From Isotricha intestinalis (Eukaryota > Ciliophora > Litostomatea > Vestibuliferida > Isotrichidae): a stretch of DNA of 47,278 nt. Within the stretch, counting starts at the first letter, position 1, and the number at the start of each line of letters is the position of its first letter. Below are positions 1 to 13,650 of this stretch, one piece after another. Under the pieces are notes generated by a model that did not search any database, had not been told where the DNA came from, and worked only from the letters and a program-made list of their open reading frames with translations. The translations under genes were made by a program, and so were the position numbers. The stretch lies in NCBI GenBank assembly GCA_023807065.1, contig JAJJLU010000431.1:1-47278 (forward strand). The letters are read 5' to 3'.

Positions 1-33
1 CCCCAATCCCCAATCCCCAATCCCCAATCCCCA
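1..33. repeat. Telomere, CCCCAAT repeats
   Basis: Four full copies of the heptamer CCCCAAT followed by CCCCA lie at the very start. This is the C-rich strand running inward from a chromosome end, so the left edge is a real chromosome terminus and the window is probably macronuclear. The G-strand unit would be ATTGGGG. It differs from the hexamer of Tetrahymena and the octamers of spirotrichs and heterotrichs. Unique sequence begins at about 34, and I see no gene between it and 142. Confidence 0.95.
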
Positions 34-2569: not shown

Positions 2570-4054
2570 TCAATGTAATTTTATATTTAAAATTTTAATA
2601 TCATTACAAATAATTTCACAATTTTTATTTACTTCAAAAAAAATATTATCTATTTTTTGAACATTTGTACAAATAAAATTAGATAAATTTAATGATTTTA
2701 AAGATTTACATTGAAAAAACATATGACTCATATTTTCGACTTTTTCAGTAATGAAATTAGATAAATTTAATTTTTGAATTGAGAAACAATTATAGAACAT
2801 TTGGCTCATATTTTCAACATTATTAGTTTTAAAATTAGATAAATTAATATGAATTAAATTTCTACAATCAAAAAACATATTACTCATATCAATTACATAA
2901 TTGGTATTAAAATTGGATAAATTAAGTTCAGTTAAAGAAGAACAATTATAAAACATATTACTCATATTAATCACTTTTTCAGTATTAAAATTTTCTAAAT
3001 TTAAATTTATTAATGATGAACAATTGAAAAATAAATGACTCATATTTATAACATTACATGTATTAATATTGTATAAATTTATATATTTTAAATTATAACA
3101 ATTATAAAACATATCATTCATTTCTGTAATTTTAAAAGTATTAAAATTTGATAAATCTATAAATGATAAGGAACAACAATTAAAAAATAATTTATTTATA
3201 TTTGATAGTAATTTATCAAATAAAAATTTAAAAGAATATTCACCTTCTTCTTTAAATATATATTTATAAGTCAAATTTATTTTTTCATTATTAAAATATA
3301 ATATACATGATTCTTCTATTTCGTTCTTATTTTTATCATTATAATTTATTATTTGAATATTTTTATTTAAATCCTCTTTTTTAATTTTTACTGTAATTTT
3401 TATATTATTATCATATTCTAATATTTTTATTATTTCATTAAGATTTTGAAGCTCTTGTTTTAATTCTTTATTTTCTTTTTCTAAAATCATATTTTTTTCT
3501 TTTTCATTATTTAAATTTATTTTATTTTCTTCTTTTATATTTTTAATCTCATTTTCTAAATATTTAATTTTTTGATTTAAATTTAATAAATCATCATTTA
3601 TCAATTTTTGATTTTTTTCTCTTATTTTTATTTCATTTTCAATATTTTCTTTTTTAATTTGATTAAAATTATCAATTAATAATTGAATTACTTCTTCAGA
3701 ACTATTTTTTATTTTGAATAATTTAAAATGAATATTATTAATATTTGGTAAAGAAGATAATAAAACAAGATTTAATTCATTATTATTATTTTCATCTATT
3801 AAATATTTTTTTTCATCTAATAAAGCAAATATAAATTCAATAATTTCTTTAAAGGAAGAATAAACTTTAAATAATTGAAACTGTGTCAATTCATTTAAAT
3901 TATACTTATTTTCATATATATTAAATAAGTCTTTTTGATATAATTTAATTTTTAAATATTCATTTGATTCCTCTATTATCAATTTATAATTATTCTCTAA
4001 TTTTTTCTCCATTTTAATATTATTAAAAATTATAATAATATTTTTTAAATACAA
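2570..4054 (-). CDS. BspA-type leucine-rich repeat (DUF285) protein with coiled coil
   Basis: Up to 494 residues. I prefer the start at 4012 (MEKKLENNYKL), because the 14 residues before it (MYLKNIIIIFNNIK) look like translated leader. The first 130 residues are mixed helical. About 135-230 is a charged coiled coil. About 285-480 carries seven or more repeats of roughly 23-24 residues of the type NTEKVINMSNMFYNCSSLTEL, the hallmark of the DUF285/BspA family (surface or protein-binding solenoids in bacteria, expanded in some protists). No signal peptide or membrane anchor is visible, so the protein is probably cytoplasmic. It ends in TGA directly followed by TAA. It is divergent from the many-intron gene that starts at 4184, leaving a shared upstream region of about 130-170 bases. 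The function is unknown. The repeat could have a bacterial origin, but its base composition matches its neighbours. Confidence 0.75.
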   Translation of the reverse strand: MYLKNIIIIFNNIKMEKKLENNYKLIIEESNEYLKIKLYQKDLFNIYENKYNLNELTQFQLFKVYSSFKEIIEFIFALLDEKKYLIDENNNNELNLVLLSSLPNINNIHFKLFKIKNSSEEVIQLLIDNFNQIKKENIENEIKIREKNQKLINDDLLNLNQKIKYLENEIKNIKEENKINLNNEKEKNMILEKENKELKQELQNLNEIIKILEYDNNIKITVKIKKEDLNKNIQIINYNDKNKNEIEESCILYFNNEKINLTYKYIFKEEGEYSFKFLFDKLLSNINKLFFNCCSLSFIDLSNFNTFKITEMNDMFYNCYNLKYINLYNINTCNVINMSHLFFNCSSLINLNLENFNTEKVINMSNMFYNCSSLTELNLSNFNTNYVIDMSNMFFDCRNLIHINLSNFKTNNVENMSQMFYNCFSIQKLNLSNFITEKVENMSHMFFQCKSLKSLNLSNFICTNVQKIDNIFFEVNKNCEIICNDIKILNIKLH

Positions 4055-4183
4055 ATATGTGGAGGTTATATTGATTTCTGATGAAAAATAATTAAAAAAT
4101 AATTTTAAGTTATTTTATTTGACATTTTACTTAAAATTAATAATCATTTAAATCATAAATTTATAAAAGTTAATCACAAAAAA

Positions 4184-7010
4184 ATGAGAAAAAATAACCA
4201 GAAATTACAAAAAATAATAAAAACAATTAAAAATCCTGTTGATAAATGGGGATTAAGGTTTATAAATTATTATATTGTAGAGTATAAATATCATAATTTA
4301 AGTGTGTAAAAAAAATTAAATAATAATAGACTGTTTGATATAATTTTATAATTATAGAGGGTATTCAATAATTATAATTATGTAATTATAGTGTGTAAGT
4401 ATTTATAATTTAGAAAAGCAAGTATTGAAAAAAAATTAATAAATTATTCAATTAGTATGTAATATATTTTATTCAATTATTTTAGGAAGTAAATTAATTT
4501 AAAAAATATAATAGTTTGTAAAGAATGATTAAAAATTAGTGGGTATTTATTTATATATTTAAAATAAGAAAGTCAAAATTGTTTTAAATACATAGGGAGT
4601 ATAAATTATATTTCATATTTTTAGGAAGTGAAAATATATATTGATAAATATAGGAAGTATATAAATTAAAATAAAATAAAATAAGAAAGTAAATATAGAT
4701 TGTGATCCATAGCCTGAATAAAATAATTAATAATTACAGATAGTTAAATGATATTATTTAATATTTTAGTTAGTTTAATAATTTTTACTAAAATATAAAA
4801 GACTGTAATAAATATTATTAATGAAAAAAAGGAAGTATATTATTAATTCTATTTAATAGTCAGTAATAGATTTATCTAAATAGTAATAGAATGTATGTGT
4901 TTTTATTTATTTAAGAAAGTATATAATTATTAAATTTTAGTGGGTAAAGAAAATATTAATATAGTTTAGGCAGTATATGATTCCTAACTTTTTTACTTAT
5001 TAAAGGCTGTAATTTCTTTTTAATTGGAGGTGATAAGAAATTATTCTTAATATTTTAGGGAGTAAGAACTAATTTATTTATAATATTGTATGTATAATAT
5101 TTTAGATTTATTTTAGGAAGTAAATTTATTTATTAATAATATAACAGATTGTAAAACAATTTTTTTTATAATTTTAGAAATTAAGAAAATAATTAAATTG
5201 TTAGGAAGTTAGATAAAATATTTTTAAAAATAAGGATGTAAATCAAATATTCATAAATTTATATAGGAAGTTAGATAATTATAAAAATTCAAAGAAAAAA
5301 TAAAATAAAATTATAGAGAGTAGATAATATTTAAAAATTAAAAGCAAATAAGAAAAAGATTATAATTTAGATTATAAGAAATAAGAAAATTATTTAATAA
5401 AGATAGATAGTATATCTTATATTTAAAAATAGGAAGTTTATATATTTTATTATTTTTCAATAGTATATATGATAATATCTTTAATTAATATACGTTGTAA
5501 AAAAATATTTATATATATTAATAGGCAGTATTTAATATAATTAATTAGAGATTTTAAATAATATTATTAATTACTATAGAGAGTAATAAATTCTATAAAA
5601 TTTACAGTGGATAAGATATTTTATTAATTATTTATAAATAGTTTATTATTATTAACTATTAATAGGAAGAAAGATAATAAAATAAATGATTCATAGAAAT
5701 TAAGATAATTTTTTTGAAAATTTTAGTTTGTTAAAATTTATTTTTTAATTATAGTATGTAAAAAAATAAATTATTAATAAAAAAGAAAGTAAAAAAATAT
5801 TAATTTTTTAAAGTATGTAAGATAATGTTATTAAAGTATGTAGTATGTAAATTTTTAAATAAAAAATTAGGATGAAAGAATAATATGTCATAATGAATTA
5901 TAGATTGTAAGATAATATTAATTAAATAAAGATGGTTAATTATATAATAATTTTTTTAGAGAGTTTAATTATATTATAATATATATAGAAAGAAAAATAA
6001 TTAATTAATTATAATAGAAAGTAAATAAAAGTATTTATTTCAGGAAGTAAGCTTTTTAAAATTATATTCTAGGAGGTTAAAAAATAATAATAAATATAGA
6101 AAGTATGATAATTATGTTGATTAATTGAAGCTAATAAGAATTATAAATTATTTTTTTAGAAAGTAAAATAATATCTTCAATATAGGAAGTAAATCTAAAT
6201 TTTAAATGGAATAGTATGTAAAGAATATTTTGATAAACATTTGAAAGTAAATATTTTTATAAAAATTTATTTTTAGAAAGTAAGAAAAAAAAATAATTTA
6301 TTCAAGAAATTAAGAAAAATTATAATAAGAATAGCAAGTAAAATAATCAACTAAAAATTAGGAAGTAATTTTATAAAAGTTAATAATAGGAAGTAAATTA
6401 GATTAATGAATTTAAAAAGAGAGTAATTTTATACATAACTTTGTAAAAGAAAGTAAAAAGTTTTAATATATTCTATAGGATGTAAATATATATTCAATTC
6501 AATTTTAGATAATAAGAAAAATATTAATAAATATAGGATGTAATAAAAAATCATTGAAATTATAGGTGGTAATTTAAATATTGATTTTTGTTTTGATTGT
6601 AATGATGAATATAATATATTTAAGTGTGTTAAATAAATCTTTTAAATTTAGTATGTATAAAAATATATTTATCAAAGAATGTAATTATTTATAATATTTT
6701 TAAGGATGTAAATTTTATATTATATTGTTTTAGAATGTATAATAATTATATTCTTTCAGGCTGTATATTATAAAATAAATTAAGTGTGTAATTTTTAAAG
6801 TAAAGTTAGCCTGTATTGCATAAATAATTTTAGAATGTAATATCATTATAATATATTAGTGTGTAATAAATTAATAAATTTAAAGGGAGTAAAATTGTAC
6901 TTAAAAATGTTCATAGTTAGTAATTAAATTTTAATGATAGAAAGGTGTAAAGATATTATATATATTTTAAGTCTGGATCCAAAGAAGCATATAGATTAGA
7001 AAATAATTAA
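4184..7010 (+). CDS. Gene made of single-codon exons: about 94 mini-introns, putative two-CxxC (zinc-binding) protein
   Basis: Exon 1 starts at ATG 4184 and runs to 4276 (31 codons, ending INYYI). From 4277 to 6971 the sequence is a chain of introns (20-34 bases, mean about 26), each separated from the next by exactly one codon. The last exon is 6972-7010 (SGSKEAYRLENN, then TAA). By hand I place 93 single-codon exons, giving a 411-base CDS and about 136 residues in 2827 bases of DNA. None of the 93 triplets is a stop. They are the usual codons of this genome (GAA, AAA, TAT, GAT, AGA, GGA, TGT, TGG). The deduced protein has Cys32-TR-Cys35 near the front, a charged helix at about residues 88-107 (MRKKEEKLKEYKKKQEER) and Cys118-PN-Cys121 followed by Gly near the end, which suggests a zinc knuckle. 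I do not recognise the family. Exon 1 could end earlier, a few junctions are ambiguous, and transcription has not been shown. Confidence 0.8.
4277..4834 (+). other. Single-codon exon array, block 1 (codons 32-50)
   Basis: Residue and first base of each one-codon exon: C4303, T4330, R4358, C4392, Q4419, Y4456, E4486, F4515, W4540, K4569, G4596, E4625, E4654, K4686, P4713, I4740, L4770, T4802, E4832. The first intron is 4277-4302 (GTAGAG...TTTAAG, 26 bases). Introns otherwise begin GT and end AG, apart from the one after P4713, which begins GAATAA. Before Q4419 the acceptor is AAAAG at 4414-4418, five bases beyond a TAG. Between K4686 and P4713 I keep a single 24-base intron rather than two of 10-11 bases around ATT 4699. 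Confidence 0.8.
4835..5373 (+). other. Single-codon exon array, block 2 (codons 51-69)
   Basis: Exons: S4860, N4890, K4916, W4941, A4970, A5006, V5030, G5059, Y5089, E5117, I5148, K5178, E5205, D5235, E5267, K5295 (uncertain), R5317, Q5345, I5371. Departures from GT..AG: the intron after V5030 starts ATAAGA; the one before Y5089 ends TTG; the one after K5178 starts TTAAGA; the one after Q5345 starts ATAAGA. The 47 bases between E5267 and R5317 are too long for this array, so I place one codon at 5295-5297, but its donor (AAATAA) is poor and that exon may be wrong. Confidence 0.7.
5374..5934 (+). other. Single-codon exon array, block 3 (codons 70-88)
   Basis: Exons: I5407, E5433, Y5464, V5494, A5525, I5551 (or R5549), R5580, W5608, F5642, E5666, K5697, F5727, Y5755, K5786, Y5814, Y5844 (or the identical codon at 5837), D5871, I5904, M5932. 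This block has most of the odd borders: ATAAGA after codon 5371, ATATGA...ATATAC between Y5464 and V5494, TTAAAT after I5551, ATAAGA after W5608, ATTATT after F5642, GAAAGA after E5666 and D5871, TTAAGA after K5697. Placement of 5551, 5642 and 5844 is the least certain. All choices keep phase 0. Confidence 0.68.
5935..6452 (+). other. Single-codon exon array, block 4 (codons 89-106)
   Basis: Exons: R5960, K5989, K6018, E6044, E6073, K6100, L6131, K6160, E6186, Y6215, K6244, K6277, K6307, Q6335, E6362, E6390, R6420, K6450. Together they encode a highly charged helix-like stretch, the composition expected of real protein rather than chance triplets. Unusual borders: GAAAAA after K5989, ATAAGA after L6131, TTAAGA after K6307, and acceptor TTG before K6244. 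The other introns are GT..AG, 23-30 bases. Confidence 0.8.
6453..6971 (+). other. Single-codon exon array, block 5 (codons 107-124) and last intron
   Basis: Exons: D6479, I6509, D6537, V6566, I6596, C6625, Y6652, N6678, D6705, N6734, A6760, C6785, P6810, N6834, C6860, G6886, L6917, V6945. The part CYNDNACPNCG is a zinc-knuckle-like motif. The intron after I6509 starts ATAAGA. The intron before I6596 ends TTG. The last intron, 6948-6971, starts TAAAGA and ends AAG, leading into the final exon. V6945 is the least certain: TAG 6938-6940 is an alternative acceptor. Confidence 0.8.
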
Positions 7011-12672: not shown

Positions 12673-13650
12673 ATGCTTCAAACAAATGATGATGATGGCA
12701 TTGACAGATTTATAGAACCAAATGAAGAAGATTATGAAATAGCATTAAAAGAAATAAAAAAAGGCCATAAAGAATCTCATTGGATATGGTATATTTATCC
12801 TCAATTAAGAGGATTAGGCCAAAGTCATATGTCTTCTTATTATGGAATTAAAGATTTAAATGAAGCAAAAGAATATTTAAACCATCCAATTTTAGGAAAG
12901 AGATTAATTGAAATTACTAAAACTCTTTTACTTTTAGACATTCAAAATCCTATTAAAATTTTTGGATATATTGATGCTGTTAAAGTTAAATCTTGTATGA
13001 CTTTATTTTATTTAGCTTCTCAAAATAAATTGTTTTTGAATGTTTTAGAAAAATTTTATAACGGAAGATTCTGTGAAAAAACTATTCAAATATTAACAGA
13101 AAATAAAAAAATAAATAAAAAAAATAAAGAAAAAATAGAAATAGAAGCAGAAAAAAAAGAGAAAGAAAATAAAGAAAATGAAAAAAAAGAGTCTAAAGTT
13201 CTTGAGAAAAAAAAGGAACAAATGGATGATGATAAAAAAGAAGAAAAAGACGATAAAAAAGAAGAAAAAGATGATAAAAAAATTGATGATGATAAAAAAG
13301 AAGAAAAAGATGATAAAAAAATTGATGACGATAAAAAAGAAGAAAAAGATGATAAAAAAATTGATGACAATAAAAAAGTAGAAAAAGAAGACAAAAAAAA
13401 GGATGACGATAAAGAAGAAAAAAAAGAAGATAAAAAAGAAGAAAAAGAAGATAAAAAAATTGATGATGACAAAAAAGAAAAAAAAGAAGATAAAATAAAA
13501 GATAATAATCAAAAAGAAAAAAAAGAAGATAAAAAAATTGATGATGATAAAAAAGAAAAAGAAAATAAAATAAAGGATGATAAGAAAAAAAAAGAAAAAG
13601 AAGATAAAATAAAAGATAATAATCAAAAAGAAAAAAAAAAAAAAATATAA
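12673..13650 (+). CDS. DUF1810 family protein with long Lys/Asp/Glu tail
   Basis: Start chosen at 12673 (MLQTNDDDGIDRFIEP), where the family begins. An upstream in-frame ATG at 12640 adds 11 residues. Residues about 10-145 match DUF1810: RFIEPNEEDYEIALKEIKKG, SHWIWYIYPQLRGLGQS, YYGIKDLNEAKEYLNHPILG, then KSCMTLFYLAS. The domain is mostly bacterial, and its biochemical function is unknown to me. From about residue 150 to the end (about 175 residues) only Lys, Asp, Glu, Ile and Asn occur, in near-repeats such as KKEEKDDKKIDDD. The tail is presumably disordered. It ends in a long A-run, so the exact stop could shift with a small indel. It shares a divergent upstream region of about 100 bases with the RING-kelch gene. 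Confidence 0.75.
   Translation: MLQTNDDDGIDRFIEPNEEDYEIALKEIKKGHKESHWIWYIYPQLRGLGQSHMSSYYGIKDLNEAKEYLNHPILGKRLIEITKTLLLLDIQNPIKIFGYIDAVKVKSCMTLFYLASQNKLFLNVLEKFYNGRFCEKTIQILTENKKINKKNKEKIEIEAEKKEKENKENEKKESKVLEKKKEQMDDDKKEEKDDKKEEKDDKKIDDDKKEEKDDKKIDDDKKEEKDDKKIDDNKKVEKEDKKKDDDKEEKKEDKKEEKEDKKIDDDKKEKKEDKIKDNNQKEKKEDKKIDDDKKEKENKIKDDKKKKEKEDKIKDNNQKEKKKKI
13214..13640 (+). repeat. Coding degenerate repeat, AAA/GAA/GAT-rich, about 36-39 base unit
   Basis: A tract built from the codons AAA, GAA, GAT and GAC, encoding repeats such as DDKKEEKDDKKID. The best-preserved copies lie between about 13225 and 13380. The same DNA is open in several other frames on both strands, but these translate only to Phe/Ser or Lys/Met low-complexity and are not genes. 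Such purine-only tracts expand and contract easily. Confidence 0.8.

Follow-up and report, generated by a model that had tools for sequence, protein, structure and literature searches.

Genes probably spelled codon by codon in the ciliate Isotricha intestinalis: one-codon exons, very small introns and a loop of changing length

The DNA studied here, called the window below, is the 47,278-nucleotide (nt) contig JAJJLU010000431.1 of the ciliate Isotricha intestinalis (assembly GCA_023807065.1), and its subject is a plus-strand gene at 4184 to 7010 in which exons of three bases alternate with GT...AG intervals. That this one-codon-exon pattern is present in the window gene and is not due to chance is confirmed. 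From the sequences of this gene and its relatives, we consider it probable that they form a ciliate family spelled codon by codon, in which the arrays of one-codon exons let a loop between two predicted metal-binding ends vary while the frame is always kept.

Results

The window was parsed by dynamic programming that is blind to codons and leaves exon length free, with a bonus for 3-nt exons. The first parse returned 94 intervals, with 90 of 93 exons measuring 3 nt, and the final parse 93 intervals and 92 exons, all of 3 nt, from 4282 to 6940. Without the parser, AG-NNN-GTA repeated three times in a row was matched at 273 places genome-wide, compared to five for the reversed pattern, and no chain of eight or more units was detected in Markov-shuffled sequence (279 kilobases, kb, both strands). 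The repeated intron-codon pattern described for the window in an earlier note, made from the letters of this contig, is thus real. Also as described there, the window triplets are free of stops in phase 0, where 8.7 would be expected from column-shuffled triplets, and their codon use is that of the neighboring open reading frames (ORFs). The further claim, that they spell a real protein in frame, appears to hold, as paralogues in the genome give the same motif. The AG-NNN-GTA pattern was also sought in bacterial contigs, where at least 115 stretches had at most two matches among the 80 listed; this chance-like result was not used.

In the gene model of Table 1, the first and last introns are added to the 93 parsed ones, giving 95 introns that make up 86% of the gene. 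The exons measure 74 nt, 1 nt, 92 times 3 nt, 6 nt and finally 39 nt (92 of 96 being 3 nt), and the predicted product has 131 residues encoded by 396 nt without a stop. These values replace the earlier 411-base message, 136 residues, about 94 splices and 85% intron, and the 31-codon ATG exon gives way to the 74-nt exon 1, the intron behind it and a 1-nt exon A. That exactly one codon stands between introns is borne out for all 92 parsed exons but not for one internal exon of 6 nt; that introns are always GT..AG is true for 76 of 95, with 79 starting with GT and 90 finishing with AG. Exon 1 is charged and, by eye, without a hydrophobic start. The 1-nt exon A, which closes the codon begun by the upstream exon, was recovered by a motif search in 9 of 30 arrays, in phase 0; the search set the upstream border of one locus, L038, wrongly, and by eye this border reads WELR.

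What had been taken for one odd gene is one of 30 arrays in the loci fetched from the genome, a single assembly of 57.3 megabases. The first 20 arrays comprise that of the window and those of 19 fetched regions, one array each, with about a hundred of the 273 matches listed. When the 3' constant part of L046 served as a DNA query, 59 places were found, from which 20 loci were cut out: ten contained new arrays, five contained arrays already known, and five lacked a chain of at least eight units. Nine of the ten added arrays are stop-free in phase 0, nine have clear family motifs, and L175 is a fragment. In the codon-blind parse, the 30 arrays hold 1,235 intervals with a mean of 26 nt (5 to 95% range, 21 to 33 nt), and 1,161 of 1,205 internal exons are exactly 3 nt long. 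A search for Cys-Pro-x-Cys written as one-codon exons, a pattern independent of the array set, gave ten matches and none when reversed.

We then consider the reading frame in the first 20 arrays. Their unbroken 3-nt runs amount to 789 codons with no stop, and codon use selects one phase in 20 of 20, i.e., phase 0 in 11 and phase 1 in 9, the phase-1 codons all being cut 2+1 by an intron. Summed over the longest run of each array, column-shuffling predicts about 50 stops in the phase-0 arrays and 12 in the phase-1 arrays, compared to none seen; a single phase is open in the longest run of 14 of the 20. In all nine phase-1 arrays, two bases are left over from the longest upstream open frame, exactly as required, which fixes the same phase. 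The array residues are overall rich in Cys, Gly and Tyr, those of phase-0 arrays also in Trp. At 276 to 2316 of L047 (C546) lies a phase-0 array of 70 introns that lacks the zinc motif and is rich in lysine and glutamate, with a telomeric contig end 275 bases away; this array is a further family.

The GT...AG intervals of about 26 bases are likely spliceosomal introns, as suggested by their ends, by compensating bases and by codon choice. In the first 20 arrays they are 17 to 39 nt long (median, 26), with GT at the start of 791 of 863 and AG at the end of 837. G at position +5 was found in 45 of 72 introns without GT (62%), compared to 151 of 791 with GT (19%; P = 3e-14), which is the compensation expected if U1 pairs there. 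U1 is found in the genome with 72.6 bits (cut-off, 69.5) and ACTTACC at its 5' end, and the U6-binding domain of Prp8 (E = 1e-87) within one frame of 2,473 codons. Arginine in phase-1 arrays is CGN in 12 of 12 cases, compared to 25 of 305 in ordinary ORFs, where AGR accounts for 280 (P = 1e-12), the bias expected if the AG that AGR would place at the end of the exon competed as an acceptor. The ordinary genes of this genome seem to have few introns: of 17 tubulin matches, 11 lie in stop-free frames of at least 427 codons, and the others are shorter or broken or lie at the edge of a contig. A scan of long ORFs in 20 loci for ordinary introns gave four weak candidates, and a stricter scan gave none. 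Because just these four were found, a comparison set of ordinary introns is lacking, and the claimed likeness in length to proven introns of the window is unconfirmed.

The arrays of family A share ends that read, with variations, W(E/G)L(R/K)-CxxCxYxFWKGExxP ... ICxxxxxCPxC(G), with a NSKEAHE-like tail in some. In the 13 arrays with both ends readable, the loop between the ends has 64 codons (window), 35, 35, 33, 32, 30, 27, 25, 23, 14, 7, 4 and 2, the exons of L179 and L187 being uncertain; L035, L041, L044, L171, L175, L178 and L189, with an end missing or altered, are outside this set. Over the 11 codons of the 3' block, triplet identity among the window, L040, L043 and L046 is 79 to 97%, and between the window and the other three 85 to 97%. 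In the same three window pairs, the introns of this block show an in-register likeness of 0.65 to 0.69, compared to 0.65 to 0.70 out of register. Since the triplets are alike and the introns are at the off-register level, the constant codons were kept while the window introns drifted to background. Changes at conserved residues include the synonymous TGT/TGC, CCA/CCT, AAA/AAG, TTT/TTC and GGA/GGG. The two CxxC knuckles, CTRC and CPNC in the window, are equally spaced in paralogues, and in L178 Leu replaces the first Cys of the 3' block. L040 and L046 are 85 to 90% identical in three long common stretches, yet their loops have 4 and 32 codons, respectively.

Some loops are satellites. Near-identical introns inside the loop were found in 6 of 20 arrays, that of the window not being among the six. 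Among the 49 modal-length introns of L042, pairwise identity is 90%, compared to 43% per base among the triplets; in the five satellite loops of L042, L043, L046, L048 and L049, introns are 86 to 97% and triplets 37 to 44% identical. A near-identical 28-nt loop intron is common to L043, L046, L182, L185 and L189, with different codons. Duplication of whole units was also seen: in L189, 11 codons (DSWVKDLGDEE) are duplicated together with their introns, and in L048, TTA-TTT-GAA with introns is present three times. Cassettes were compared in pairs across seven loop segments. When the two introns flanking one cassette are within one edit of those flanking the other, 12 of 27 pairs have the triplet in common (10 of 25 with one edit, 2 of 2 with none), some of these pairs coming from the L189 block, which retains 11 of 11 codons; sharing is 23% at two edits and 7 to 14% beyond. 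Because sharing is highest at near-identical flanking introns and fades over a few edits, codons travel with their introns. In L042, the triplet is linked to the near ends of both adjacent introns (P < 0.0005); for the far ends, the link is weak in the preceding intron (P = 0.02) and absent in the following one (P = 0.40). In L043, the link is confined to the near edge of the following intron (P = 0.001). Altogether, we infer that intron-plus-codon units have been duplicated and lost with breakpoints within introns. Hypermutation of the codon slots as the only cause is not claimed, as the codons move with the introns.

Domains were sought in nine ORFs upstream of other arrays. Trypsin_2 was matched in L033 above and in L042 below the cut-off, a B-box in L036, L045 and L048, a kinase also in L045, and a DUF285/leucine-rich repeat (LRR) in L050. 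The genome has 62 places with the trypsin-like part of L042 (1740 to 2453). Among these, L033, L037 and L042, at least, run on into one-codon arrays, and some other members of this trypsin-like family lie in plain open frames of 500 to 628 codons. The deduced loop of L042 is strongly hydrophobic over about 50 residues, mostly L, V, I, F, G and Y, and looks like membrane segments spelled codon by codon. In L045 (C519), kinase, B-box and one-codon array are followed by an open frame of 79 codons. Of the 30 arrays, 24 are no more than 5 kb away from a contig end, compared to 13.5 expected, a count that assembly breaks may inflate, as some arrays stop exactly at the contig end. A CCCCAAT telomere was found at 7 of 11 checked contig ends near arrays and also at L178. 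Downstream of the array in L044, ATTGGGGATTGGG stands head to head with CCCAATCCCCAATCC, an internal pair of telomere repeats that is perhaps a chimeric join. The combination of a hypervariable part with protease or B-box domains, close to telomeres, suggests that these proteins recognize something variable.

Table 1. Annotated features of the window (positions on the 47,278-nt contig)
Feature	Position	Strand	Basis or remark
Exon 1, 74 nt, MRKNNQKLQKIIKTIKNPVDKWGL + AG (first two bases of an Arg codon)	4184..4257	+	WGLR/WELR junction common to paralogues
Intron 1, GTTTAT...TTGTAG, 23 nt	4258..4280	+	Position from paralogue comparison, not parser
1-nt exon A, completes AG|A (Arg)	4281..4281	+	Equal layout in 9/30 arrays (motif search)
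5' constant part, 15 one-codon exons + introns, CTRCQYEFWKGEEKP	4282..4715	+	Compared with 8 paralogues at 5' end
Variable loop, 64 one-codon exons + introns; contains all 19 non-GT-AG introns	4716..6595	+	Parse
3' constant part, ICYNDNACPNCGL, 13 one-codon exons, then 6-nt exon AAAGGT (KG, 6941-6946)	6596..6946	+	Parse
Last intron, 25 nt	6947..6971	+	Added to the 93 parsed introns
Last exon, SGSKEAYRLENN + TAA	6972..7010	+	Paralogue ends: NSKEAHEFEK, NSKEPHEINEF, NSKEAHELGK
Telomere repeat (CCCCAAT)n, macronuclear-type	1..33	.	Motif as in trichostome litostome ciliates (parts of PMC11316547, PMC10978948)
Divergent neighbor ORF, 514 codons, 78-bp tandem repeats at 2672-3156	2573..4114	-	Outside array gene

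The divergent neighbor perhaps encodes an LRR-type repeat protein. At 13220 to 13616 of the window, tandem repeats of 39 to 177 bp lie within an ORF, and AAA, GAA and GAT triplets are abundant there. The CCCCAAT telomere is described for two trichostome litostome ciliates, one of them with the standard code, in parts of the reports PMC11316547 and PMC10978948; the long standard-code ORFs of the window are consistent with that code.

Discussion

In the family proposed here, the spliceosome would remove each interval, probably in order, and the message would lengthen by one codon per step. The unit of change would be one intron plus one codon, exchanged unequally or slipped between similar introns; because the breakpoints would fall inside introns, whole codons could be gained or lost without a frameshift. 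Loop codons would afterwards diverge under selection for variety, and the ends, which resemble a zinc ribbon (CxxC ... CPxC), would hold the loop. Given the trypsin-like, B-box, kinase or LRR parts found in sister families, these would likely be recognition proteins. Where non-canonical sites of the window fail, neighboring codons might be dropped in frame, so that one gene might give several loops. We are more tentative about a wider proposal, which we judge somewhat less probable than its opposite: a protist receptor repertoire in which codon plus intron is the unit of diversity, introns serve as recombination scaffolds, cassettes are reshuffled near telomeres, and the spliceosome assembles a hypervariable loop onto protease, B-box, kinase or LRR effectors.

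Several observations weigh against a family of this kind. The parser favors 3-nt exons; 19 of the 95 window introns are not GT-AG, every one of them between 4716 and 6595; and in the first 20 arrays 72 of 863 introns lack GT and 26 lack AG, so that such introns might stay unspliced and codons be lost in frame. Avoidance of AG at exon ends is not absolute, with five AAG or GAG exons in phase-0 arrays. A second phase is also open in 6 of 20 arrays, mostly short ones; L048 has two stops when its 2-nt exons are joined as parsed, and L187 has one, next to misparsed exons. The window loop is no satellite, its introns resembling each other no more than introns from different arrays do; triplet identity in L041, over a stretch of four triplets, is 56%, making it a weaker case than the other five satellites; and L046 and L049 show no near-edge link of triplet to intron. 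Fast codon change in satellite loops could reflect selection or faster mutation, and it could also be an appearance caused by intron homogenization. The metal or zinc binding predicted for the ends is read from cysteine spacing, and the zinc-ribbon profile, Pfam Zn_ribbon_3, stayed below threshold (E = 1.8; 8.6 bits, cut-off 27). A recognition role, likely as it is, is drawn from the domain company, and the upstream ORFs of L034, L037 and L049, three of nine, gave no domain match. Finally, the search for an outside homologue without introns, suggested in the earlier note, gave none above thresholds in Pfam, PDB (best E = 0.38) or the protein database, with no other ciliate covered; the homologues are all inside this genome.

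The earlier note had offered saturating insertion of intron-like elements or a slow switch, both of which miss the constant ends, the variable loop and the duplicating intron-plus-codon units. Selfish saturation, in which such elements spread through ordinary genes and splicing works with no role in diversification, is improbable, though it stands ahead of the other alternatives. It would account for the near-same 28-nt intron seen with different codons in several loci and for constant ends that are also split by introns at each codon. Independent insertion, however, should leave exons of 1, 2, 4 and 5 nt, whereas nearly all are 3 nt (1,161 of 1,205), and Prp8 and 11 of 17 tubulin matches are uninvaded. 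Nor would insertion affect codon number, yet loops range from 2 to 64 codons, with intron-plus-codon blocks duplicated; because codon number would stay the same, yet differs between the close paralogues L040 and L046, insertion alone is insufficient.

A second alternative, that only the constant ends matter and much or all of the loop array is usually skipped as exons, so that the message carries a loop that is short or variable, is distinctly unlikely. Any skipped 3-nt exon preserves the frame, and all 19 non-canonical introns of the window lie within its loop; against this, the loops are stop-free with ordinary codons, implying at least occasional translation. The intervals might instead be DNA eliminated in macronuclear development, the contig then being germline or partly processed. 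Ciliates do eliminate DNA, and short eliminated segments of about 26 bp occur in Paramecium. We give this very little credence, since telomeres of the CCCCAAT type stand at 7 of 11 contig ends near arrays and at L178, the neighbors on the window contig are long open frames, and the intervals are bounded asymmetrically by GT..AG, with U1-type compensation at +5, rather than by TA pointers; elimination at TA pointers is rejected because of these asymmetric ends together with the macronuclear-type telomere on the contig. That the arrays are non-coding satellite or a decayed gene, exon-like by appearance, has the least chance of all and, although some loops are truly tandem satellites, is rejected because of the absence of stops in 789 codons, the phase matching upstream exons and motifs kept across paralogues whose introns cannot be aligned.

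A codon-by-codon family may be compared with several known systems. Micro-exon genes (MEGs) of Schistosoma mansoni, as described in part of PMC10526429, have many very short, alternatively spliced exons, mostly multiples of three, of 3 to 81 bp (6 to 81, mostly 15, in its introduction), with 10 to 20 per gene, introns of 0.1 to 5 kb and secreted products. As in MEGs, short exons in multiples of three make up most of the coding sequence of the array genes; unlike in MEGs, they are nearly all one codon, with up to about 90 in a row, the introns are about 26 nt long, and some loops are satellites. That single microexons as short as 1 nt (Arabidopsis APC11) or 3 nt can be spliced is shown in part of PMC4674806; these are isolated, whereas the arrays would build a protein from them. 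Very small introns are described in Nyctotherus, Stentor and Paramecium (parts of PMC2633312, PMC9505925 and PMC12862383). The tiny introns of these three ciliates are known to interrupt ordinary exons; in the arrays, an intron stands between nearly all codons.

Introner elements are near-identical introns found at many places, and the 28-nt loop intron of L043, L046, L182, L185 and L189 resembles them. The three-base ruler, the change in loop length and the duplication of codon-carrying units are not explained by insertion, and, unlike insertion of introners, which leaves the coding sequence unchanged, the number of loop codons changes with the number of introns. Tandem-repeat recognition proteins and antigen-receptor-like repertoires combine a constant frame with a part made hypervariable by recombination of units. 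In the arrays, by contrast, one codon together with an intron would form the unit, and joining would take place in the RNA. In the titles and abstract beginnings of the open literature, subscription papers not being covered, no report of such genes in any ciliate was found.

If spliced as predicted, the window gene would require about 95 splicing events for a message of 396 bases, far beyond any microexon case found in the open literature searched. Standard gene finders and read aligners are likely to miss such genes. If true, the finding bears on the minimum distance between splice sites and on the order in which the spliceosome works over 3-nt exons. It would also make introns frame-safe recombination joints for protein evolution and thereby provide a new route to hypervariable proteins.

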